DNA of 64,000 nucleotides from Haploplasma axanthum (GTDB taxonomy: Bacteria; Bacillota_I; Bacilli_A; Acholeplasmatales; Acholeplasmataceae). Of the stretch, positions 6,027 to 64,000 are shown one piece after another; position 1 is the first letter of the stretch; each line of letters starts with the position of its first letter. The position numbers and the translations under genes were made by a program. The stretch covers positions 434,001-498,000 of the forward strand of contig NZ_LR215048.1 of assembly GCF_900660745.1 (NCBI RefSeq). The letters are read 5' to 3'. The notes under the pieces were generated by a model. The model ran no database searches, had not been told where the DNA came from, and worked only from the letters and a program-made list of their open reading frames with translations.

Positions 6027-7302
6027 TTTTACCTTTCTCCCATAAAAATTGTAGTTGTTTTTCTGAACCTAGAGTTTCATTAATATAGATATTAGAAACC
6101 CATAAAATAATATCATTGCTATCAGTGATTAACCAAAGTTTATCTCGTTCATATTTTGGAAGTTTTAAGTCTATAAGATAGTCTTTCAACTTTTTTCTTC
6201 CATATTTAAACGAAAGAGTATCGCCTGGTTTTCGAGTTCTCGCACGCAATGGCAATGATAATTTATTATAACATATTTTTACTGTTTCATTATCTATATT
6301 ACTAGGATTATTAAAAAATGTGATTTTTTCCATATTTGGCAAAATATTTAAAGAATCATTTAATGTAATGTCAAAAACATTCTTAGTTTGATTTTTTTTA
6401 ATAAAAGCTTCGTTATAAGCCTTTATAAAAGTATATTTATTCTCTAAAGTGTATTCTTGATTTGGAGAATCATTTAGTAACATACATCTAATTTTATCGA
6501 TTGTTTCGAATGTCGTTTCAAGATTATCTTGTTCAAATAGGATAGCAATCATTTCTTTTTGAATAACTACATCTAATTTTTTAAAATTTTCGATATTAAT
6601 GGAGTTATTATGAAGTTCTTTTAAAGCTTGATTTTTTATGTATGATGCTGCATCTTTTAGTTGAGTATGAAAGTTATAAACTTTTTTTAAAAACTGTTGA
6701 TTTTCCTGTTTCAAAATTGGAATTACAGTATGACGATATCTATTTCTCAAATAGTTATCAGAGTAATTTGATTCGTCAGTAAAATAAGGAATTTTATGTA
6801 ATAGTGCATAGTCAATAATTGTCTTTTTATCAATATTTAGTAAAGGTCTAATATAAGTTATTTCGTCTTTAACGTAAAGTGGCTGAATACCTGAGTAACC
6901 ATATAGATTGCTACCTCTAGTCATTTTGATTAAAATTGTTTCAGCTAAATCATCTAAGTGATGTGCTGTAGCAATGTAACTAGTTTTATATTTTTTAGCA
7001 ATCATTCTTAATTTTTCATAGCGTAAGTCCCTTGCCTCACTTTGAAAATTGCCTTCATTAATGTTAATGCTGAAAATATGATAAATAAGATTGTTGTTTT
7101 TAGAGAAATTGATAATTAGATCTTGATCACGTTCATTTGTTTTTCTAGTATTATGGTTAAAATGAACTACAATTGGTTTGTATTTTTCAGTAATTAAAAT
7201 ATTCAATAATACCATTGAGTCAATTCCGCCACTAACTGCTACGATGATTGGAATCTTTTTATCAATCTTAAAGGATGATAATAGATTAGTAATATTTAAC
7301 AT
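6010..7302 (-). CDS. tilS: tRNA(Ile)-lysidine synthase
   Basis: Modifies C34 of the tRNA-Ile CAU anticodon to lysidine, which is essential for reading AUA codons. The N-terminal PP-loop ATPase motif VAVSGGIDS lies at about 21-29, followed by HFNHNTRK and AHHLDDLAET, both typical of TilS. The C-terminal third (from about 345, LPLRARTRKPGD) is the TilS C-terminal domain. Length 430 is normal. It is the first gene of the minus-strand operon and is read from an extended -10 promoter that overlaps the divergent maf promoter region. Confidence 0.95.
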   Translation of the reverse strand: MLNITNLLSSFKIDKKIPIIVAVSGGIDSMVLLNILITEKYKPIVVHFNHNTRKTNERDQDLIINFSKNNNLIYHIFSININEGNFQSEARDLRYEKLRMIAKKYKTSYIATAHHLDDLAETILIKMTRGSNLYGYSGIQPLYVKDEITYIRPLLNIDKKTIIDYALLHKIPYFTDESNYSDNYLRNRYRHTVIPILKQENQQFLKKVYNFHTQLKDAASYIKNQALKELHNNSINIENFKKLDVVIQKEMIAILFEQDNLETTFETIDKIRCMLLNDSPNQEYTLENKYTFIKAYNEAFIKKNQTKNVFDITLNDSLNILPNMEKITFFNNPSNIDNETVKICYNKLSLPLRARTRKPGDTLSFKYGRKKLKDYLIDLKLPKYERDKLWLITDSNDIILWVSNIYINETLGSEKQLQFLWEKGKNEQRY

Positions 7303-7325
7303 AGAAAAGCCTCCTATTCATACTA

Positions 7326-7334
7326 ATTATAACA
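7326..7334 (-). promoter_or_regulatory. Extended -10 promoter of the tilS operon
   Basis: TGTTATAAT on the minus strand, a perfect TGn-extended -10, 24 bases from the tilS ATG. Its upstream side shares DNA with the maf -35 box at 7345. Confidence 0.7.
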
Positions 7335-7344
7335 TAAAAGATAT

Positions 7345-7373
7345 TTGACATTAATAGTAAAAAGTACTACAAT
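7345..7373 (+). promoter_or_regulatory. Sigma-A promoter of maf
   Basis: TTGACA at 7345-7350, 17-base spacer, TACAAT at 7368-7373. This is a near-consensus housekeeping promoter 35 bases before the maf ATG. Confidence 0.82.
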
Positions 7374-7407
7374 CAAAGGGAAGAAAACCAAAAAGGGGAA
7401 ATGATTA

Positions 7408-7965
7408 ATGATAATACTTGCTAGTAATTCAGTTAGAAGAATTGAACTTTTGAAAGATGCCGGTGTTGATTTTAAAGTTATTCCAAGTAATGTGGTCGAA
7501 GTAATTGATGAAAAGTTAAAACCAGAAGATAATGCCATGAACTTAGCATTTTTAAAGGCGAATGATGTTTTTAACAGAAATCCTGGTGATTTAGTTATAG
7601 CAGCTGATACAATAGTTACATTGAATAATAGAATTTTTGGTAAACCAAAGGATGAAGAAGAAGCATTTGAGATGTTAAAGACATTGTCAAATAAAAGACA
7701 TGAAGTAATCACTGGTGTTGCTATTTTATATAGAGATCGAAAAGATGTTTTTTATTCAAAATCAACTGTTAAATTTAAAGATTTAACGGATGAACAAATT
7801 AATGATTATATTGCTACTAAAGAACCATTTGGTAAAGCAGGAGCATATGCTATTCAAGGAATTGGAAAGAGCATTGTAGATACATTTGAAGGTGACTTTT
7901 TTACAATAGTAGGATTGCCACTTAAAGATGTTTTAAAGCGAATAAAAGAAATTGAGGCCATTTAA
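7408..7965 (+). CDS. maf: Maf-family nucleoside triphosphate pyrophosphatase
   Basis: House-cleaning enzyme that hydrolyses non-canonical or modified NTPs (dTTP/UTP-type activity in the Maf family) to monophosphates. The 185-residue protein starts with the diagnostic MIILASNSVRRIELLKDAG. It keeps the family's acidic residues and the segment VIAADTIVTLNNRIFGKPKD (about 68-87), with GKAGAYAIQGIG near 150. The start is set by AAAGGGGAAA upstream of ATG. It is transcribed divergently from tilS and is followed by a weak terminator. The link to septum inhibition seen in Bacillus is family knowledge only. Confidence 0.93.
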   Translation: MIILASNSVRRIELLKDAGVDFKVIPSNVVEVIDEKLKPEDNAMNLAFLKANDVFNRNPGDLVIAADTIVTLNNRIFGKPKDEEEAFEMLKTLSNKRHEVITGVAILYRDRKDVFYSKSTVKFKDLTDEQINDYIATKEPFGKAGAYAIQGIGKSIVDTFEGDFFTIVGLPLKDVLKRIKEIEAI

Positions 7966-7982
7966 ATAATGGTTCTTTTTTT
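7956..7982 (+). terminator. Weak terminator after maf
   Basis: GCCATT/AATGGT short stem that includes the maf stop codon in its loop, followed by TCTTTTTTT. The stem is short with a G-U closing pair. Confidence 0.5.
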
Positions 7983-8039
7983 GTGTTTTTAAAAAAATAT
8001 GTTAGAATAAGAAGCAATTAAAAAAATATGAGGTAATTT

Positions 8040-8474
8040 ATGATAAGAAAAATGAATAAAAAAGATATTCCAAATATTTTGAATTTATGGTTAGAAACAA
8101 ACCTTGAAGCACATAGTTTTATTGATAATGCGTATTTTGTTAGCAATGTTAATAATGTTAAAGAAGAATTATCAGATGCAATAGTCTATGTCTATGAAGA
8201 AAATGAAGAAATTATTGGATTTATTGGTTTAGAAGATAATTACATCGCTGGAATATTTATTGATAGTAAGTATCAAGGAAAGGGAATTGGTAATGAACTT
8301 TTATCAAAAGTTAAAGAAATTGATGAAAATTTAACTTTAAAAGTTTATGCTAAAAATGAAAAAGCCCTTAATTTTTATAAGAAACAAGGTTTTATTATTG
8401 TTCATGAAGTATTAGATGAAGTTAATAATGAAAAAGAACTAGTAATGGTTTATACAACAAAAAAACAGGCTTAG
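8040..8474 (+). CDS. GNAT-family N-acetyltransferase
   Basis: A 144-residue single-domain acetyltransferase that would use acetyl-CoA. The pyrophosphate-binding motif A is YQGKGIGNELL (about 79-89). Motif B follows as LKVYAKNEKALNFYKKQGF (about 100-118). These fit the small YjaB/PhnO-like branch of the superfamily, whose substrates vary. AGGTAA lies just upstream of the ATG. The coding sequence runs into the terminator shared with hslO. The acceptor substrate is not predictable. Confidence 0.85.
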   Translation: MIRKMNKKDIPNILNLWLETNLEAHSFIDNAYFVSNVNNVKEELSDAIVYVYEENEEIIGFIGLEDNYIAGIFIDSKYQGKGIGNELLSKVKEIDENLTLKVYAKNEKALNFYKKQGFIIVHEVLDEVNNEKELVMVYTTKKQA

Positions 8475-8490
8475 ACCTGTTTTATTTTTG
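8461..8490. terminator. Bidirectional terminator between the GNAT gene and hslO
   Basis: AAAAACAGG (8461-8469) pairs with CCTGTTTT (8476-8483). Both strands have a T run after the stem, and the stop codons of both convergent genes lie inside the structure. Confidence 0.82.
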
Positions 8491-9351
8491 ATTTTCTCTA
8501 ATTTTTAATAAATCATTTTTATCAAAATGATATTTTTTCTTACAAAAGTGACAAACAACTTCAATTCCATTATCTTCAATTAGTTCATTCATTGTAGCAT
8601 TATCAAGTGCTGATAGTGAACGAGCAAAACCATCTTTCGAACAATGACATTTATAATGTAAATCTTTAATGTCTAAAACTTTTTCAGTTTTATTAGCAAT
8701 TGCTGAAACTAGTGATTCTAAAGACTTTTGTTCATCAAACCATCTACTTACTGGACCAATATCATAAATAGTTCTTTCTAATTGACTAATTGTTTCATCT
8801 GATGCACCTGGCATTACTTGAACAATAAATCCACCAGCTGATCTAACTGTTTGATCATTTTCAACTAAAACACCAAGTGAAACAGCAGTAGGTGTTTGTT
8901 CACTAACAACGAAGTAATTTGCAAAGTCTTCGGCAATTTCACCAGTTTTTAATTCTGATGAAGATGTAAACATACTTCTCATGTTTAAGTCTTTTGTAAC
9001 GTGTAAGAATCCATTACCGACTGCGGCACCAACATCAAGTTTTCCTTTTACTTCACTTCTAATATAAACATGAGGGTTAATAATATCTCCTCTAACTTCA
9101 CCATTTCCACATGTGTCAACTAGCATTGTTCCGATTGGACCATTGCCTTTTATTTGTAATGTTAATTTTTCTTCATCTTTATACATAAGTCCCATCATTG
9201 CAGAAACTGTTAAAAAACGTCCAAAAGCTGCGGTAGCAGTTGGCCATGTATCATGTATTACTCTTGCCTCATTGACAAGATTTGTTGTTTTTGATGCATA
9301 TATTCTAATTTCACTGTTATATGCGGTTGCTATAATTGCGTAATCTTTCAT
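8482..9351 (-). CDS. hslO: Redox-regulated chaperone Hsp33
   Basis: A holdase activated by oxidative unfolding stress. The 289-residue protein has the Hsp33 N-terminal domain. Its C-terminal redox switch keeps all four zinc cysteines: C235-x-C237 (CHC) and C267-x2-C270 (CHFC). In the family, disulfide formation releases the zinc and exposes the client-binding surface. The gene has its own extended -10 promoter and is divergent from dusB, as in the Bacillus yacC-yacF neighbourhood. Confidence 0.95.
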   Translation of the reverse strand: MKDYAIIATAYNSEIRIYASKTTNLVNEARVIHDTWPTATAAFGRFLTVSAMMGLMYKDEEKLTLQIKGNGPIGTMLVDTCGNGEVRGDIINPHVYIRSEVKGKLDVGAAVGNGFLHVTKDLNMRSMFTSSSELKTGEIAEDFANYFVVSEQTPTAVSLGVLVENDQTVRSAGGFIVQVMPGASDETISQLERTIYDIGPVSRWFDEQKSLESLVSAIANKTEKVLDIKDLHYKCHCSKDGFARSLSALDNATMNELIEDNGIEVVCHFCKKKYHFDKNDLLKIRENQK

Positions 9352-9369
9352 TATTCCACCTCATCATTT

Positions 9370-9378
9370 ATTTTAACA
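9370..9378 (-). promoter_or_regulatory. Extended -10 promoter of hslO
   Basis: TGTTAAAAT on the minus strand, about 20 bases before the start. A TTGTAT lies upstream with a 19-base gap. Confidence 0.55.
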
Positions 9379-9392
9379 TGAATGAAAAGATA

Positions 9393-9401
9393 TGATACAA
9401 T
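9393..9401 (+). promoter_or_regulatory. Extended -10 promoter of dusB
   Basis: TGATACAAT on the plus strand, 16 bases before the chosen ATG. It predicts a very short 5' leader beginning near the GGTGAT ribosome binding site. Confidence 0.6.
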
Positions 9402-9417
9402 AAATGCGGTGATAAAT

Positions 9418-10386
9418 ATGTCTTTTAAGATTAAGAATATAGAAATAAATAATAAAGTAATTCTCGCACCTATGGCTGGTGTGTCAAATAGTCCTTTTAG
9501 AAAACTAGCAAGAAAATATGGAGCAGGTTTAGTTTATGCTGAAATGGTTTCGGATAAAGGGTTAATAAATGCGAATGATAAAACTAAAAAAATGCTTTAC
9601 ATGGAAGATTTTGAAAAACCAATGATTCAACAAGTTTTTGGTTCTGATATTGAATCAATGGTTGAAGCAGCTAAATTTATTGACGAAAATAGTAATTGTG
9701 ATGCTATAGATATTAATATGGGATGTCCAGTTCCTAAAGTTGCTATAAAAGCGCAAGCAGGTTCATCTTTAATGAAAGATCCAGCTAAAATTTATGAATT
9801 AGTAAAAGCAGTAAAAGAAGCTGTTAATAAACCAATAACTGTAAAAATTAGAAGTGGTTGGGATTCTGATAGTGTTAATGCTGTTGAGGTTGCTAAAAAA
9901 ATTGAAGAAGCTGGTGCATCAGCAATTACAGTTCATGCGAGAACTCGTGCTCAAGGTTATTCTGGTGAACCAGATTTAGATGTTATAAAAGCAGTAAAAG
10001 AAGCTGTTAGTATTCCTGTTATAGGAAATGGAAATATTGTTGATGGAATTAGTGCAAAAAAAATGCTTGAATATACTAAATGTGATGCTGTTATGATTGG
10101 AAGAGCAGCACTTGGTAATCCATGGGTTTTCAGAGAAATTGATGCATTTTTAAATGGTGAAGAAATTCCACCTCGACCAACTAATAAGGAAATTTTTGAT
10201 TTAATAATGACTCATATGGAAGAACTTATAAAGTTTAAAGGTGAAAAACTTGGTATCTTAGAAATGAGAGGTCATTCTCCTTGGTATTTAAAAGGCATTC
10301 CAAATGCTAGTGAAGTCCGTAAAAATCTTACAAAATGTAATTCTAAAGATGAAATGGAAGCTGTTTTAAGAGACTTTCTTCTATAA
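9418..10386 (+). CDS. dusB: tRNA-dihydrouridine synthase DusB
   Basis: FMN enzyme that reduces uridines in tRNA. The 322 residues begin MSFKIKNIEINNKVILAPMAG, colinear with Bacillus DusB. The FMN-site APMAGV motif and the catalytic cysteine in NMGCPVPK (about 100-107) are intact. The C-terminal motif MRGHSPWYLKG corresponds to the RKHxxWYxKG of relatives. The frame is open 36 bases further upstream to an ATG at 9382, but that stretch contains the -10 box, and the ribosome binding site GGTGAT fits the ATG at 9418. It is divergent from hslO. Confidence 0.93.
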   Translation: MSFKIKNIEINNKVILAPMAGVSNSPFRKLARKYGAGLVYAEMVSDKGLINANDKTKKMLYMEDFEKPMIQQVFGSDIESMVEAAKFIDENSNCDAIDINMGCPVPKVAIKAQAGSSLMKDPAKIYELVKAVKEAVNKPITVKIRSGWDSDSVNAVEVAKKIEEAGASAITVHARTRAQGYSGEPDLDVIKAVKEAVSIPVIGNGNIVDGISAKKMLEYTKCDAVMIGRAALGNPWVFREIDAFLNGEEIPPRPTNKEIFDLIMTHMEELIKFKGEKLGILEMRGHSPWYLKGIPNASEVRKNLTKCNSKDEMEAVLRDFLL

Positions 10387-10400
10387 AGGAATAAAAATAC

Positions 10401-10412
10401 TTTGAATTTAAA
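10401..10412 (+). promoter_or_regulatory. Imperfect FabT-type operator, upstream box
   Basis: TTTGAATTTAAA overlaps the -35 box of the degV-fabT promoter. It is a direct partner, 40 bases away, of the better box at 10441. Both boxes are preceded by AATAC. Confidence 0.5.
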
Positions 10413-10429
10413 ACTATTTATGATATCAT
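10402..10429 (+). promoter_or_regulatory. Promoter of the degV-fabT operon
   Basis: TTGAAT (10402-10407), 16-base spacer, TATCAT (10424-10429) with a TGn extension at 10421. It sits between the two FabT-like boxes. Confidence 0.65.
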
Positions 10430-10440
10430 ATTACTAATAC

Positions 10441-10453
10441 TTTGAATATCAAA
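10441..10453 (+). promoter_or_regulatory. FabT-type operator, downstream box
   Basis: TTTGAATATCAAA is a near-perfect palindrome that differs at one base from the core TTTGATTATCAAA of the streptococcal FabT box. It lies just after the predicted transcription start, where a bound repressor would block initiation. Confidence 0.65.
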
Positions 10454-10469
10454 CAAAAAGGAGAGTATT

Positions 10470-11321
10470 ATGAAACAAAAAATAGGTATAGTTGTCTGTG
10501 GAAATTCTGGTATTGATTATTTAGATATTGATTTCCCAATTGAAGTAATAAGAGCTACATTAGTAATTGATAAAAAAGAATATGAAGATTTTGTCGATAT
10601 TACAGCAGAGAAATTTTATGATATAGTTGTTAAGAATCCAAATATAGATTTGTCGACATCACAAACATCAACAGGTAGAATAGCAGATGTTTATGAAAAA
10701 TTAAAAAATGAAGGGTATACAGATGTTATCGTTGTTACAGTATCATCAAAATTATCTGGAACATTCCAAGGTGCAGTACTAGCAAAAGAACTGGTTGAAG
10801 GAATAAATATTTATCCTATTGATTCAAGAAGTGTTTCTCAAGGTGAAGTTTATTTAGTTTTAGAAGCTATTAAAATGATCAAAGAAGGTAAAGAAGTTAA
10901 AACAATCATTGATAAATTAGAAAAAATGAGAGATAATATAAGTGTCTACGTTTTAGTTGATACGCTTAAGTACTTGGTTAAGAATGGAAGATTATCTGCA
11001 ACAAGTGGTTTTTTAGGAACATTGTTAAAGATTAAGCCACTTTTAAAAATCCAAAAAGATGGAAGTTTAGTTCCACATGAAAAAATAAGAACGACTAAGA
11101 AAGCTAGAGAAAGATTGATCGAAATTATTAAAGATGAAATTAAAGGTAAAAATATTGGTTTATTTATTGTTCATACGAACAATAGAGATGAGGCATTATC
11201 TTTAAAAGAAGATTTCTTGAAATTAAATTCGAAACTAGAAATTGATGTAGTTCCACTTACACCTGTTGTTGGTGTACATGCAGGACCAGGAACTTTAGCA
11301 GTTGGATATATTATAAGATAA
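10470..11321 (+). CDS. DegV-family fatty-acid-binding protein (FakB-like)
   Basis: DegV/FakB proteins bind a free fatty acid and present it to the FakA kinase, giving acyl-phosphate for phospholipid synthesis. The 283 residues show the family layout. The Ser/Thr-rich ligand motif STSQTSTG lies at 62-69 in place of the usual TSQPS, and the C-terminal GVHAGPGTLA (268-277) has its histidine. AAAGGAGAG precedes the ATG. It is co-transcribed with the FabT-like regulator 20 bases downstream and sits behind two FabT-type boxes, supporting a role in fatty-acid uptake. FakA is not in the window. Confidence 0.88.
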   Translation: MKQKIGIVVCGNSGIDYLDIDFPIEVIRATLVIDKKEYEDFVDITAEKFYDIVVKNPNIDLSTSQTSTGRIADVYEKLKNEGYTDVIVVTVSSKLSGTFQGAVLAKELVEGINIYPIDSRSVSQGEVYLVLEAIKMIKEGKEVKTIIDKLEKMRDNISVYVLVDTLKYLVKNGRLSATSGFLGTLLKIKPLLKIQKDGSLVPHEKIRTTKKARERLIEIIKDEIKGKNIGLFIVHTNNRDEALSLKEDFLKLNSKLEIDVVPLTPVVGVHAGPGTLAVGYIIR

Positions 11322-57551: not shown

Positions 57552-57833
57552 ATGGTTATTTTAGGAATTGCAGAATTTTTTGGTAATATTTGGCCTTTAG
57601 TTGTTACAATTGTTATTGGTGCATTAATTGGATGGATTGCAGGAATTCTTATGGGTTCTAAGGGTGGATTAATTAGAAATGTCATCATTGGTATACTAGG
57701 TGCCTTTGTTGGTGGTATTTTAGGATCACTAATCCCTTTTACTGGAAATATTCCTTTTGGAAGTTTTATAATGGCTGTAGTAGGTGCAGTATTAGTTATT
57801 TGGGTTGTTAGATTTTTATCAGGGAAAAAATAA
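57552..57833 (+). CDS. GlsB/YeaQ/YmgE-family small membrane protein
   Basis: 93 residues with three glycine-rich membrane helices: ALIGWIAGILMGSKGGLIRNVIIGILGAFVGGILG is the core pattern of the transglycosylase-associated (YeaQ/YmgE) family. In Lactobacillales and enterococci GlsB accompanies envelope stress proteins; the molecular role is unknown. GAGGAAG lies five bases before the ATG; another ATG at 57547 is out of frame. Confidence 0.85.
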   Translation: MVILGIAEFFGNIWPLVVTIVIGALIGWIAGILMGSKGGLIRNVIIGILGAFVGGILGSLIPFTGNIPFGSFIMAVVGAVLVIWVVRFLSGKK

Positions 57834-57840
57834 AAAAGCC

Positions 57841-57870
57841 TTGATAAGTAAGCTTAATATATGTTACTAT
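57841..57870 (+). promoter_or_regulatory. Promoter of the c-di-AMP riboswitch transcript
   Basis: TTGATA (57841-57846), 18-base spacer, TACTAT (57865-57870) with a TGT extension. The start would be about ten bases ahead of the riboswitch. Confidence 0.6.
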
Positions 57871-57881
57871 TGATATGTTAA

Positions 57882-57996
57882 GATCCGAATCAAAAGTGAG
57901 TGGGGAAACCAATAATTGGGGTGAATTCTTGTTTAGAGACAAGAAGGGGAAACTTGGAGTTCCTAACCCGACAGCTAACCTCATAGGAGTTATCCA
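57882..57996 (+). ncRNA. ydaO-type cyclic-di-AMP riboswitch
   Basis: The segment holds the conserved ydaO/yuaA pieces in order: TGGGGAAACC (57901), TTGGGGTGAATTC (57917), AAGGGGAAACTT (57943), TCCTAACCCGACAGCTAACC (57961) and TCATAGGAGTTATCC. ACCCGACAGCTAACCTC is the most diagnostic. In the known class c-di-AMP binding favours the terminator. Here a clear terminator follows at once, so high c-di-AMP should turn the downstream genes off. Confidence 0.93.
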
Positions 57997-58026
57997 AGCG
58001 TGCGATATTTTTGTTGCGCGCTTTTT
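57996..58026 (+). terminator. Expression-platform terminator of the riboswitch
   Basis: AAGCGTGCGA pairs with TTGCGCGCTT (two G-U pairs), 8-base loop, T5 tail. Confidence 0.85.
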
Positions 58027-58063
58027 ATATTTTATTATATTATTTTTATAAATAATATATAAA

Positions 58064-58072
58064 TGTTATAAT
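58064..58072 (+). promoter_or_regulatory. Possible second promoter, downstream of the riboswitch
   Basis: TGTTATAAT, a perfect TGn-extended -10, between the riboswitch terminator and the first V-ATPase gene. No good -35 is seen in the AT-rich DNA before it. Confidence 0.5.
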
Positions 58073-58112
58073 TAATTTGAGAAAAGTAATATTAATGAAG
58101 GTGGTGATTAAA

Positions 58113-58427
58113 TTGTCAAAGCAATTAGAAAAGATTATGGATGCAGAAAAGAAAATTCAAAAAGAGATTAATAAAGCAAATGAAAGGCGTGAATTATTAG
58201 TTTCTATTGCTGTTGAAGAAGGAACAAATGAGTCAAATAAGCTACATGAAGAAACAGAAATCAAAATAAAACAAATGTTCAATGATAAGAAACAAAGAAT
58301 TAGTGAAATTGATGAAGAATTAGAAACTGTAATGAAACGTGAAAGCGAAAAAATGACAAAGAAAGTAAGTAAAAAAATAGATAATATTATTGAACAAATT
58401 TATGAGGAGGCGTTAGGTAGTGATTAA
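58113..58427 (+). CDS. ntpF: V-type ATPase peripheral stalk subunit (NtpF/H-like)
   Basis: 104-residue charged helical protein, a coiled coil along most of its length (KKIQKEINKANERRELLVSI and following). This fits the G/H-type stalk subunit that pairs with subunit E. The start TTG 58113 follows AAGGTGGTGA; in-frame starts further upstream (58077, 58095) lack a site. First gene of the V-ATPase operon, overlapping subunit I by eight bases, as in Enterococcus ntpF-ntpI. The assignment rests largely on position and the coiled coil. Confidence 0.78.
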   Translation: MSKQLEKIMDAEKKIQKEINKANERRELLVSIAVEEGTNESNKLHEETEIKIKQMFNDKKQRISEIDEELETVMKRESEKMTKKVSKKIDNIIEQIYEEALGSD

Positions 58428-60342
58428 GTCAGTTAGAAAAGTCAAAATAATTGTTCCAAAAGAGTCAAAAGAAGAATTATTAATGACATTACAAAAAGAA
58501 GCAATTGTGATGCTTCCTAAACATGATGAGAATAGTGGAGTTATTGATGTTAGCAACGAAGATGAAGTAATATCAAGAACTAATAACGCTCTAAAAAAAT
58601 TAGGTTCTTATCGAAAGAAAAACAGAAAGTTTTTTCAATATAGCACAGTTAAATATGAGAACTTTGTTGGTGGAGTTAATGAACGTTTAGACCTTTTAAA
58701 TAGTATAGAAGAAAAATTTGACCAATATAATTTTTTAACGAGTGAAAATAAAGAGGAACAAAAACTAATTAACGAGGTTTATCCTTTTAAAGATTTGGAG
58801 TATACGACAAAAGAATTAGAAGATAGTTTATATGTTTCATTTCATTTAGGATATGTTCCTGAGAATCGATGGGATTTCTTTAGAGATTATTCAAATAGAG
58901 CAGGTGTTTCATATGTAACATATGGAACAAGTGAATTAGGACACCATATTTTAGTTTATTTGGATAATGATGAAGAGGATAAAGAGATTAATCAATTGGA
59001 AAGATTTGGGTTCGTTTTACAAGAGTTACCAATTCTTGAAGAAAAATTCTCACAATATATTAAAAAGAAACAAACAATAATAAATAATAACAATACAAAA
59101 ATTAATGAAATAACGACTTATTTTACTAATAGCACTGAAGAAGATAATGAACTTAAGATATTAGCAGATCAAATGATTGCTCAAAAGAGTCGAAGATTAG
59201 TTATTTATAAAGAAAATGATAAAGACGTTATTTTTGATGGCTGGATTAGTGATGAGTTTGCTGGAAGCCTTCAGGCTATTGTTAAAAAGGTTACGTTGTT
59301 ATATCAGTTAGAATTTCAAGAACCAACTGAATATGATTATGTCCCTACATTATTAAAAAATAATAAATTTGTAACACCATTTGAATCAATTACGAATACA
59401 TATTCTGTTCCAAATTACCGAGAAATTGATCCAAACCCTGTTATGTCAATATGGTACTGGATTATCTTTGGATTAATGATTGGTGATGTTGGTTATGGGT
59501 TAATGATGTTACTAGTATTTGGATTGTTTACTAAATATAAAAAGCCAAAAGGTGAGTTTGGACAATTAGTTAAAATATTTTTCTATAGTGGTATAACAAG
59601 TATTATCGCAGGGATTTTATATGGCAGCTTCTTTGGTGTTGATTTTAACCTCTTTGGTATTATCGGTAATATCTTTGGGCAAAATTGGAATTCTGTGCTT
59701 TTAGACCCAATCAATGAGACTATGACAATGTTAATATTCTCGATTGGACTGGGTGTCTTACACTTAATAACAGCACTAGTAATGAAAGTCATATTATCTG
59801 TTAAACAAAAAGATGTTATTACAGGAATAGCAGATGGCTTAAGTTGGATCTTTATATTACTTGGTGTTTCAATGTTTGCAGCAGCAAGTATCTTAAGTCT
59901 TTTAAAAACAATTGGAATAGTTTTCTTAATTATAGGAATTGTCGTTTTAATTGTCTTTAAAGGTTTAAAGAAGAAAGGTATTCTAGGAAAAATCTTTGGT
60001 GGATTTGGTGGTCTCTTTGGAGTAACAAGTTACTTAAGTGACTTACTAAGTTATTCAAGAATTTTAGCACTTGCACTATCTTCTGGGATAATTGCATATA
60101 CAATGAATTTATTAGCGGGATTAGTTAATGGTAATGGTTCTAATTTTATTGGAATAATTATCTCAATTCCGATTTATATCGGAGGACATTTATTTAATTT
60201 CGCAATGGGCTTGTTATCGGCATATGTACATAGTTCAAGATTACAATACTTAGAGTTTTATAATAAATTTTATGAAGGTGGCGGATACTTATTTGAGCCT
60301 TTAAAATTTAATACAAAATATATAAATGAAATTACAAATTAG
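58420..60342 (+). CDS. ntpI: V-type ATPase subunit I (a-type membrane subunit)
   Basis: 640 residues. The N-terminal half is a soluble stalk-contacting domain (to about 330). The C-terminal half has about seven or eight membrane helices that form the ion half-channels next to the c-ring. DPNPVMSIWYWIIFGLMIGD and the SYLSDLLSYSRILALALSSG helix (about 545-564), which contains the essential arginine, are diagnostic. GTG start behind GAGGAGG. Confidence 0.95.
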   Translation: MIKSVRKVKIIVPKESKEELLMTLQKEAIVMLPKHDENSGVIDVSNEDEVISRTNNALKKLGSYRKKNRKFFQYSTVKYENFVGGVNERLDLLNSIEEKFDQYNFLTSENKEEQKLINEVYPFKDLEYTTKELEDSLYVSFHLGYVPENRWDFFRDYSNRAGVSYVTYGTSELGHHILVYLDNDEEDKEINQLERFGFVLQELPILEEKFSQYIKKKQTIINNNNTKINEITTYFTNSTEEDNELKILADQMIAQKSRRLVIYKENDKDVIFDGWISDEFAGSLQAIVKKVTLLYQLEFQEPTEYDYVPTLLKNNKFVTPFESITNTYSVPNYREIDPNPVMSIWYWIIFGLMIGDVGYGLMMLLVFGLFTKYKKPKGEFGQLVKIFFYSGITSIIAGILYGSFFGVDFNLFGIIGNIFGQNWNSVLLDPINETMTMLIFSIGLGVLHLITALVMKVILSVKQKDVITGIADGLSWIFILLGVSMFAAASILSLLKTIGIVFLIIGIVVLIVFKGLKKKGILGKIFGGFGGLFGVTSYLSDLLSYSRILALALSSGIIAYTMNLLAGLVNGNGSNFIGIIISIPIYIGGHLFNFAMGLLSAYVHSSRLQYLEFYNKFYEGGGYLFEPLKFNTKYINEITN

Positions 60343-60354
60343 GAGGAATAAAAT

Positions 60355-60816
60355 ATGGACGGTTTAACATTAGCGCTTATTGGCGCGATTACAGCAACAC
60401 TTTTATCAGGGATAGGATCAGCGATTGGTGTAGGAATAACAGCACGTGCAGCATCTGGTGTTCTTACAGAAAAACCCAATTTATTTGGAAAACTTTTAGT
60501 TTTATTAGCATTACCAACTACAAATGGTATATATGGGTTTCTAATTTCAATTTTGATATTAGTTCAAACAGGAATTATTGGCGGAGCAGCAGTTGATGTA
60601 TCAATGAATGAAGGATGGAAGTATCTATTTGTATCATTACCTGTGGGCATTGTTGGTATTTTTGCAGGTATTGCACAAGCTAAGGCGGCAGCTGGAGCTA
60701 TTTATATGACAGGTAAAAAACCTGAATTATCTGCTCGCGGTATTGTTATGGCATCACTAATTGAAACATATTTGATTTTAGCTTTACTAATTAGTGTATT
60801 GATTATTTTTAGTTAA
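60355..60816 (+). CDS. ntpK: V-type ATPase subunit K (c-ring proteolipid)
   Basis: 153 residues, a tandem duplication of the two-helix c subunit giving four helices, as in Enterococcus NtpK. The ion-binding Glu is in SLIETYLIL (E137). Other predicted ligands of the Na+ site of NtpK (Thr64, Gln65, Gln110) correspond to T56, N57 and Q108. The first hairpin has no carboxylate, so one ion site per four helices is expected. GGAGG before ATG. Confidence 0.95.
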   Translation: MDGLTLALIGAITATLLSGIGSAIGVGITARAASGVLTEKPNLFGKLLVLLALPTTNGIYGFLISILILVQTGIIGGAAVDVSMNEGWKYLFVSLPVGIVGIFAGIAQAKAAAGAIYMTGKKPELSARGIVMASLIETYLILALLISVLIIFS

Positions 60817-60831
60817 TGGGAGTTGATTACT

Positions 60832-61434
60832 TTGGGTTTAGGTGAGAAAATTATAAAAAAAGGAACAGAAGAAGCAAAAAGAATTTTAGATGTAGCTAAA
60901 TTAGAAGCTAAACAAACTAAATTAAATATAATTGCAGAAGCAAAAGAAGATTGTGAAATAAAAGTAAAAAACGTTAAAAGAGAAATTGATAAAGAATTAA
61001 AAACTAAAGAAAAAATGTTGCAGTTTGAAAGAAAACAAGCAGAATTAATCGCTAAACAAAGTGTTATTGATAAGATTTTTGGAACTGTAAGTGAAAGAAT
61101 TAATAATTTGAAAGATGAAGAACTTTTTAATTATGTCTTAAATCAAATTAAGAGTGAAAAACTTACAGGTGATGAAGTAATGCGTACAAATAAATTGCAG
61201 TATGAAAAGTATTTAAAGGCTTTATCAACTAAAAAAAGTGGGAAATTAGTTGAGTTAGATAAAATAAATGATATTTTAAAAACGAATTTCAAATTATCTA
61301 ATGAACATATTGATATTAATAATGGGTTTATATTAGAAGGAAAATTCTTTGATTTGAATTTTGCTATTGAAGAGGTAATTGATAGATTACGCGATAAGTA
61401 CGAAAGAAAAATCGTTAAAGAATTATTTGAATAG
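60832..61434 (+). CDS. ntpE: V-type ATPase subunit E
   Basis: 200-residue stalk subunit with a long N-terminal helix (GTEEAKRILDVAKLEAKQTK) that pairs with the NtpF-type subunit, and a C-terminal head (about 105-200) ending with FAIEEVIDRLRDKYERKIV. TTG 60832 is nine bases after GGGAG; the earlier in-frame TTG at 60823 touches the site and is less likely. Confidence 0.88.
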   Translation: MGLGEKIIKKGTEEAKRILDVAKLEAKQTKLNIIAEAKEDCEIKVKNVKREIDKELKTKEKMLQFERKQAELIAKQSVIDKIFGTVSERINNLKDEELFNYVLNQIKSEKLTGDEVMRTNKLQYEKYLKALSTKKSGKLVELDKINDILKTNFKLSNEHIDINNGFILEGKFFDLNFAIEEVIDRLRDKYERKIVKELFE

Positions 61435-61445
61435 TGGTGGTTAAT

Positions 61446-62360
61446 ATGGATATTAACTTTTTAAACGGAGTATATAACGTTAAAGTAGATTCAATGTTAA
61501 GTGATGATGATTTTAATACATTGAAAAGATTAGAAAAATCTTTATTCTTTAAATATCTAAAAACAAAAGATTATGGATTTGGTAGTAAATATCATTCGTT
61601 AGATGAAATTATTGCTCAAGAGATTATTAATACAAAACTAGAATTAGAAAGTTATACTGATGAAAAAATTATTTCATTTGTATTTTACTTAGAACACGAT
61701 TTAACAAATATAAAAATTGTATTTAAAGAATTAAAATATAATGTTGTATCAACAATGTATGATAATGTTGGAAACTTTCCAAATGAAGCGTTGCATCAAT
61801 TTTTTAAATATGATAACAAGGCTTTATTACCTAATGAAGTATATGAACTTTTTGATAGAATCAAATTAATTGATAGTAAAAATATTCAAGAAACACTTCA
61901 AAATATTGAAAAATGTGTTTATGATTTTTATGATGAATATTTAAACAAAAAGAAAACTTATTATCCATTAAAAGCATATTTAGAATATGACAAGGTAGTT
62001 AGTAATCTTAAAACGTTACTTAGATTAAGAAATCGTAATACAAGTCTTAATGATTTTAAAGATGCTTTACTGAATGAAAGTATTGTTGGTATTGATAATT
62101 GGGTTAATGCTTATGAATTACCAGAGAGAGAAATGGTAAATAAATTATCAATGTATTTTGATGATTTTGTAATTGATGGAATAAATGATTTTCTAAAAAA
62201 TAATGACGCTAATGAACTTGAATATGTTTTTTTAGATTATTATGACGAGAAGCTTAAGGAATTAACATATGATGATAATTCTATTGCAGCTATTTTGTAC
62301 TATCTACATTTAAAGAGAGTTGAGACATTTAAGTTAAGGGAGATGTATTATGAAAAATAA
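61446..62360 (+). CDS. ntpC: V-type ATPase subunit C (d-type)
   Basis: 304 residues, all-helical, the collar that joins the central rotor to the c-ring. YPLKAYLEYDKVVSNLKTLLRLRNRN and the C-terminal [20 protein letters not shown] are typical of the bacterial V-type C subunit. ATG 61446 is preceded by GGTGG. Overlaps the next gene by 11 bases. Confidence 0.88.
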   Translation: MDINFLNGVYNVKVDSMLSDDDFNTLKRLEKSLFFKYLKTKDYGFGSKYHSLDEIIAQEIINTKLELESYTDEKIISFVFYLEHDLTNIKIVFKELKYNVVSTMYDNVGNFPNEALHQFFKYDNKALLPNEVYELFDRIKLIDSKNIQETLQNIEKCVYDFYDEYLNKKKTYYPLKAYLEYDKVVSNLKTLLRLRNRNTSLNDFKDALLNESIVGIDNWVNAYELPEREMVNKLSMYFDDFVIDGINDFLKNNDANELEYVFLDYYDEKLKELTYDDNSIAAILYYLHLKRVETFKLREMYYEK

Positions 62361-62661
62361 ATCGATAATTGCTCTAGGACATAATGAAAATGTTTATGTT
62401 TTTAATGCGATAGGAATTGATGGAGTAATCATTCAAAGAGACGTATTTATTAAAGTTGTTAATGAATATATAAAAGAAGGAATAAAAATATTTTTTGTTA
62501 GTCAAGAGTTTAATGATTTAATCAGAGAAATAAAAGAGGAAAATGATACAGAAGCATATCCAATCTTTTTATCGCTATCAATGGATAAAAATGTTGAAAG
62601 TATTGGGGTAGAAGAGATAAGAAAAAATGTTGAAAAAGCAACAGGAATAAATTTAATTTAA
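62350..62661 (+). CDS. ntpG: V-type ATPase subunit F (NtpG)
   Basis: 103-residue Rossmann-like rotor subunit bound to subunit D. The frame [20 protein letters not shown] and [11 protein letters not shown] fits the F subunit family (named NtpG in Enterococcus). AAGGGAGA lies before the ATG inside the end of ntpC. Confidence 0.88.
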
Positions 62662-62674
62662 GGGAGTGAATATA

Positions 62675-64000
62675 TTGAAGAAAAATAATGAAAAAGAAGT
62701 AGGTATAGTAACAAAAGTTTCTGGTCCCTTAATTGTTGCCAAAAATATGCAAAGTGCTCAAGTCTATGACGTTGTTAAAGTTAGTGATAAAAGACTAACT
62801 GCAGAAGTAATTGAACTACGTGGAGATTTAGCATCAATCCAAGTATATGAAGAAACTGCTGGTATTGGACCAGGAGAACCAGTTTATTTTACTAATGAAG
62901 TCTTATCAGTAGAACTTGGACCGGGGTTAATAGGAAGTATATTTGATGGTATTCAAAGACCTTTAGATAAAATCTATGAAGTTAATTCAAAAATCATTCC
63001 AGCAGGTATTGAAGTTCCAAAACTTGATAGAAATAAAAAATGGAAATTTGAAGCAATTGCTAAAGCTGGTGATGAAGTAAGTGGTGGAGATGTTTTAGGA
63101 ACAGTTTTAGAAACTAATATTGTTAAACATAAGATTATGGTTCCAAATAATATTAAAGGGAAGATTATTGAGATTAAAAGCGTTGAAGCAACCATAGCTG
63201 AATCAATTGTGAAACTTGAAAAGACAAATGGTGAAATAATCGAACTTACAATGATTCAATCATGGCCTGTCAGAAAGAAAAGACCATATAAAAAGAAAAT
63301 AACTCCTTTCAAACCAATGATTACAGGTCAAAGAGTTATTGATACATTATTTCCAATAGCTATTGGAGGAATTGCTGCAGTTCCAGGACCATTTGGTTCA
63401 GGGAAAACAGTTGTTCAACATCAACTTGCTAAATGGAGCGATGCAGATATTATTGTTTATGTTGGGTGTGGAGAACGTGGAAATGAAATGACTGACGTTT
63501 TAAGAGAATTCCCACAGTTAAAGGATCCAAAAACTGGTGAATCGCTGATGGAGCGAACAGTCTTGATCGCTAATACATCAAATATGCCAGTTGCTGCAAG
63601 AGAAGCAAGTATTTATACTGGAATCACAATTGCTGAATACTATCGTGATATGGGATATAAGGTTGCTTTAATGGCTGATTCAACATCTCGTTGGGCTGAG
63701 GCACTTCGTGAAATGAGTTCAAGATTAGAAGAAATGCCAGGCGAAGAAGGATATCCTGCATATTTAGGTTCAAGACTTGCTGAATTCTACGAAAGAGCTG
63801 GGCTTGTTGAATGTTTAGGAAATGGTAGTAGAGAAGGGGCTGTAACAGTTATTGGTGCAGTGTCACCTCCAGGTGGAGATACATCAGAACCGGTAAGTCA
63901 AGCAACGCTTAGAATTGTTAAAGTATTCTGGGGATTAAGTGCAAGCTTAGCTTATAGAAGACACTTCCCAGCTGTTGATTGGATAAGAAGTTATTCATTA
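62675..64000 (+). CDS. ntpA: V-type ATPase catalytic subunit A (3' truncated by window edge)
   Basis: 442 of about 590 residues are visible; the frame is open to the right edge. TTG start behind AGGGAG (62661-62666). The N-terminal barrel has [16 protein letters not shown], and the A-type bulge domain lies at about 110-200. The nucleotide-binding P-loop is GPFGSGKT (about 236-243). [16 protein letters not shown] carries the catalytic Glu, and the [20 protein letters not shown] block follows. It drives rotation by ATP hydrolysis; subunits B and D should follow outside the window. Confidence 0.97.

Follow-up and report, generated by a model that had tools for sequence, protein, structure and literature searches.

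The window, a stretch of 64,000 nucleotides of the Haploplasma axanthum genome that was analysed as a whole, contains a c-di-AMP riboswitch directly upstream of an operon for a V-type ATPase (ntp), and among the 33 of 34 riboswitch copies of the order that were examined it is the only one before ntp. The riboswitch is probably functional, and a promoter proper to the ntp operon seems to lie 3' of the riboswitch terminator, so far as can be judged from sequence. Control of ntp by c-di-AMP would then probably be partial, through read-through from a promoter upstream of the riboswitch. The features of the locus, all on the forward strand, are the following.

57552-57833 (+): GlsB/YeaQ-type transglycosylase-associated gene (Pfam PF04226, Transgly_assoc, 38.5 bits)
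57841-57870 (+): candidate riboswitch promoter P1, TTGATA-18-TACTAT, its -10 extended by TG (consensus match only)
57873-58005 (+): c-di-AMP riboswitch aptamer (RF00379, 79.3 bits) with loop-tail pairing CUUGGA/UCCAAG
57996-58023 (+): intrinsic terminator, a 12-pair stem and then a T-run (hairpin scan and leader folding)
58045-58072 (+): candidate promoter P2 of ntp, TTTATA-16-TATAAT, 3' of the terminator
58113-58427 (+): ntpF, G/H-like stalk subunit of the V-ATPase, with a TTG start (PF03179, 22.7 bits, under the cut-off)
58420-60342 (+): ntpI (PF01496, 96.6 bits)
60355-60816 (+): ntpK, rotor subunit of 153 aa (NF005124, 155.2 bits)
60823-61434 (+): ntpE (38% identity to the E-position gene of congener G001)
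61446-62360 (+): ntpC (35% and 46% identity to the C-position genes of congeners G001 and G002, respectively)
62350-62661 (+): small subunit of the ATP-synt_F family, ntpG in the E. hirae nomenclature (PF01990, 27.8 bits)
62666-64000 (+): ntpA, catalytic subunit, continuing past the window end (PF00006, 249.9 bits)

The neighbours of the riboswitch are as a preliminary description of this DNA had named them, with the GlsB/YeaQ type upstream and V-ATPase subunits downstream. The most likely start of ntpF is the TTG at 58113, 3' of AAGGTGGTGA, and both the ribosome-binding site and the start are aligned with those of the two congeners. The Pfam match of ntpE is to a coiled-coil model and lies below the cut-off, and ntpC had no Pfam match; both were assigned from their place in the operon and their similarity to neighbouring ntp operons. 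In the genome, ntpA is followed next by ntpB and ntpD (locus L004, ORFs 6667-8451, 8451-9827 and 9837-10505). There is no gene between the riboswitch and ntpF, and ntp is the only downstream gene that the riboswitch could gate.

The aptamer was identified with Infernal and Rfam as RF00379 (c-di-AMP, ydaO/yuaA) at 57873-58005 (+), with an E-value of 9e-17, a score well above the gathering score of 38 and a match spanning the full model (1-134), confirming the ydaO-type assignment of the preliminary description. It is the sole Rfam match across the 64 kb window, in agreement with that description, which had it as the only regulatory RNA between the GlsB-type gene and ntpF. The riboswitch was also said there to have its own terminator, and this is the 12-pair hairpin with T-run at 57996-58023, which prevails when the full leader is folded, with a probability of ~1; shuffled sequences had a mean of 0.3 terminator-like hairpins per region. 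No strong antiterminator was found by nascent-RNA folding, in which the one candidate, a weak one, paired with the extreme 5' end.

With near-invariant columns defined from 32 relatives of the order, the window aptamer keeps 59 of 59, or 60 of 61 with its sister copy in the same genome (L002) excluded from the definition. The long-range pairing CUUGGA/UCCAAG between loop and tail is intact in the window aptamer; five of its six positions are paired in 32-33 of the 33 copies, and two positions alternate between A-U and G-C. At the variable columns, the window aptamer and L002 differ in 36 of 93 (39%). If half of this divergence had arisen unconstrained on the window branch, zero changes at the 61 columns would have a P of ~2e-6 and at most one change a P of ~3e-5; these values are rough, as all columns are treated alike, and they are also compatible with constraint under an earlier target and a move only recently. 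The near-complete invariant core, kept despite the 39% difference from the sister at variable columns, argues for a riboswitch that probably still functions. The genome also has genes for the diadenylate cyclase CdaA (TIGR00159, 206 bits) and for a fusion of a GdpP-type phosphodiesterase with ribosomal protein L9 (L104, 457-2907, 816 aa, NF011110, 933 bits), so that c-di-AMP should be both made and degraded. A model for the bifunctional GdpP/L9 protein exists in NCBIfam.

Two copies of RF00379 are present in the genome (1.88 Mb, one contig). The second, L002, lies at 1060749-1060868 (-), directly 5' of a gene for a CPA2 cation:proton antiporter (TIGR00932, 41 bits, under the cut-off). Within the order, RF00379 was found in 33 of 160 genomes, with 34 copies in total, and a CPA2 antiporter is the next gene downstream in all 32 other copies examined (of 33, the G073 copy being left out). 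At 17 further loci of the class, the genes downstream of the riboswitch are CPA2 (10), TrkA-like (2) and others (3), the remaining two being without assignment. In other families of the class, TrkA-like genes follow the riboswitch at L078 and L083, and at the single loci L080 and L091 it stands 5' of a chemoreceptor-like and a thymidine-phosphorylase-like ORF (all named by eye). No other riboswitch adjoining a V_ATPase_I match was found in the phylum sample, in which two candidates per genome were scored, and no c-di-AMP riboswitch was found in a scan of 20 loci around the V-ATPase I genes of relatives. Co-conservation of the riboswitch with ntp, which the preliminary description had put forward as a check, is therefore not seen at the loci searched in relatives; the searches were confined to the phylum, and the pairing could occur elsewhere, for instance in Clostridia.

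The aptamer tree places the window copy together with L002 and the copy of G001 (L023), with a local support of 0.918, the branching order within this group having a support of 0.107, and the nearest copy to the window aptamer is L002 (75%). The aptamer sequences support a duplication of the riboswitch within the genus, and the window riboswitch looks like a lineage-specific copy of a switch whose usual target is a cation antiporter. The P1 region has a weak similarity to the region upstream of the L002 riboswitch, equalled in score by 24 of 1000 shuffles, and it is plausible that a promoter was duplicated jointly with the aptamer. Promoter-like sites are not enriched in the leader region, with seven found and 5.2 expected from shuffles.

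Both congeners carry the orthologous ntp operon, with ntpB 86% (G001) and 89% (G002) identical to that of H. axanthum. In G001, ntpF follows directly on the gene for a CDF transporter, and neither the GlsB-type gene nor the riboswitch is present there; in the window, the CDF transporter gene stands 5' of the GlsB-type gene, which had no match in either congener. In G002 the gene before the ntp operon is another one; the upstream end of this operon lies on another contig and was read directly, and the sole riboswitch of G002 stands before an antiporter, with none at ntp. The candidate promoter P2 has the extended -10 element TGTTATAAT at 58064-58072. An extended -10 of the form TGnTATAAT, as also present in the window, lies 39-49 nt 5' of ntpF in both congeners, and its dinucleotide-shuffle P in regions of 70 nt is 0.035 for the window, 0.008 for G001 and 0.004 for G002. 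Among more distant family members this site is variable or absent, so that the argument for a separate promoter is drawn from three congeneric genomes.

Control of the V-ATPase by the riboswitch, as suggested in the preliminary description, is thus upheld in part. The riboswitch is real and almost completely conserved, with ntp as the one target within its reach; the link to ntp is not shared with relatives, and a P2-like site is present. Exclusive control is contradicted by the combination that the preliminary description had itself named as refuting: the antiporter-linked riboswitches of the relatives, which precede a different gene, together with the TGnTATAAT site 3' of the terminator, a predicted separate promoter of ntp.

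Here it is proposed, with moderate confidence, that a module of promoter, aptamer and terminator was duplicated within the genus and landed before ntp, adding a c-di-AMP-gated promoter to the basal one. The antiporter-linked copy would have been the source, and the module would have been inserted 3' of the CDF transporter region, ahead of the ntp operon. Basal expression of ntp would come from P2, as in the congeners. In c-di-AMP riboswitches of this class, ligand binding should favour termination. A tandem system terminates with c-di-AMP (PMC9337991), and from this class behaviour an OFF polarity is proposed for the window copy, in which bound c-di-AMP would promote the terminator at 57996-58023 and cut short the transcripts from P1. 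At low c-di-AMP, transcripts from P1 would read through into ntp and raise the V-ATPase above the level given by P2. This proposal is weakened by P1 being a consensus match of a kind no commoner here than in shuffles, and by the lack of a strong antiterminator in the folding, and the occurrence of the association in one genome only also counts against it. P2 could carry nearly all of the ntp expression, and the core may have been conserved while the copy still had another gene as its target.

An unlikely reading is that the riboswitch moved to, or was left at, its place before ntp recently and is now uncoupled, terminating its own short transcript while ntp is expressed from P2 alone. This agrees with a P2-like site that is kept in the congeners and positioned 3' of the terminator, with congeners that run ntp without a riboswitch, and with a pairing that is found in no relative searched. 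It agrees less well with the retention of nearly all invariant positions at the sister divergence and P values given above, although that argument is itself compatible with a recent move. It is improbable that the riboswitch is the sole entry to the ntp operon, with c-di-AMP directly setting the V-ATPase supply: the intact riboswitch does lie immediately 5' of ntpF with no intervening gene, but the extended -10 common to both congeners sits between the terminator and ntpF, and the orthologous operons, which have no riboswitch, are presumably expressed all the same. Very improbable is a role as an insulator or source of a short terminated RNA that shields ntp from transcription of the GlsB-type gene, since a strong terminator does follow this gene, itself absent from the congeners, but a conserved ligand-binding core would be needless for a plain terminator.

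If the proposed control by read-through is true, c-di-AMP would reach primary ion pumping, beyond the transport of K+ and osmolytes, and the locus would show clearly how a riboswitch module, copied within a genus, can recruit a new target that already has a promoter. If it is not true, the locus is a warning that a riboswitch may adjoin an operon without being the main means of its control.

The genome has three V-ATPase operons, at ~492 kb (window 58113-64000), 522 kb (L054/L055) and 898 kb (L056), and a search of it for an F-type gamma subunit gave none; V-type enzymes appear to be the sole rotary ATPases of the cell. The operons at 522 kb and 898 kb are without an RF00379 riboswitch, since the genome has only the two matches described above. 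Directly after the 522-kb operon there are TrkH- and TrkA-like genes for K+ uptake (L055, 7241-9210), in the manner of ntpJ in the Enterococcus hirae ntp operon, and in the genome G012, Trk-like genes (named by eye) lie directly upstream of the ntp operon (L062, 4593-7152). The K subunit of the 898-kb operon (L056, 9270-9695) is extended at its N-terminus, has one hairpin only, and is of a type unlike the other two.

The nearest solved chain to the NtpK of the window is 2bl2, subunit K of the V-type sodium ATPase of E. hirae. The Na+ ligands, which are taken here to be L61, T64, Q65, Q110 and E139 in the numbering of E. hirae NtpK, are kept at four of five positions, with Q65 replaced by N and with the Thr, the second Gln and the Glu retained. 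The motif at this site is LPTTN in the window, LTTTN in G002, and LPGTQ in both the G001 operon and the 522-kb operon, so that one Na+ ligand position is altered in this clade. Given LPTTN where these operons have LPGTQ, no coupling ion should be taken for granted, and the Na+ specificity of the pump is uncertain. A wider possibility, offered tentatively as it is rather doubtful, is that c-di-AMP sets the supply of the rotary V-ATPase in a cell without an F-type ATP synthase and co-regulates the CPA2 antiporter through the sister riboswitches, the pump making the gradient that the antiporter spends; the change from LPGTQ to LPTTN might then reflect a changed coupling ion.

Compared with known systems, the order of subunits in the window operon is similar to that of the E. 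hirae ntp operon for its Na+ V-ATPase. The two-hairpin form of the E. hirae K subunit is also that of the window NtpK, in which LPTTN replaces LPGTQ. As for the RNA, the reported targets of c-di-AMP riboswitches are K+ transporters, amino acid transporters, and cell-wall and osmotic genes (PMC7266159). No report of such a riboswitch before V-ATPase genes was found in the literature searched, in which the main target list (Nelson et al. 2013) was not included. The window copy resembles the rest of the RF00379 class in its full-length match, near-invariant core, loop-tail pairing and downstream terminator, and differs in that its downstream operon encodes a V-ATPase, whereas the order copies examined otherwise always precede CPA2. 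In Bacillus thuringiensis, the kdpFABC operon is reported to be under a c-di-AMP riboswitch (PMC6488665); this system is alike in having such a riboswitch at the operon of a primary ion pump, although Kdp is a P-type K+ importer and the window pump a rotary V-ATPase whose operon probably has a second promoter. In enterococci and clostridia, the Na+-I (DUF1646) riboswitch is located upstream of V-type ATPase genes (PMC9337991), which is likewise a riboswitch before a bacterial V-ATPase operon, but both the RNA class and the ligand differ from those of the window. The riboswitch described here is a member of a known RNA class with an unusual target, one that is apparently confined to a single lineage.
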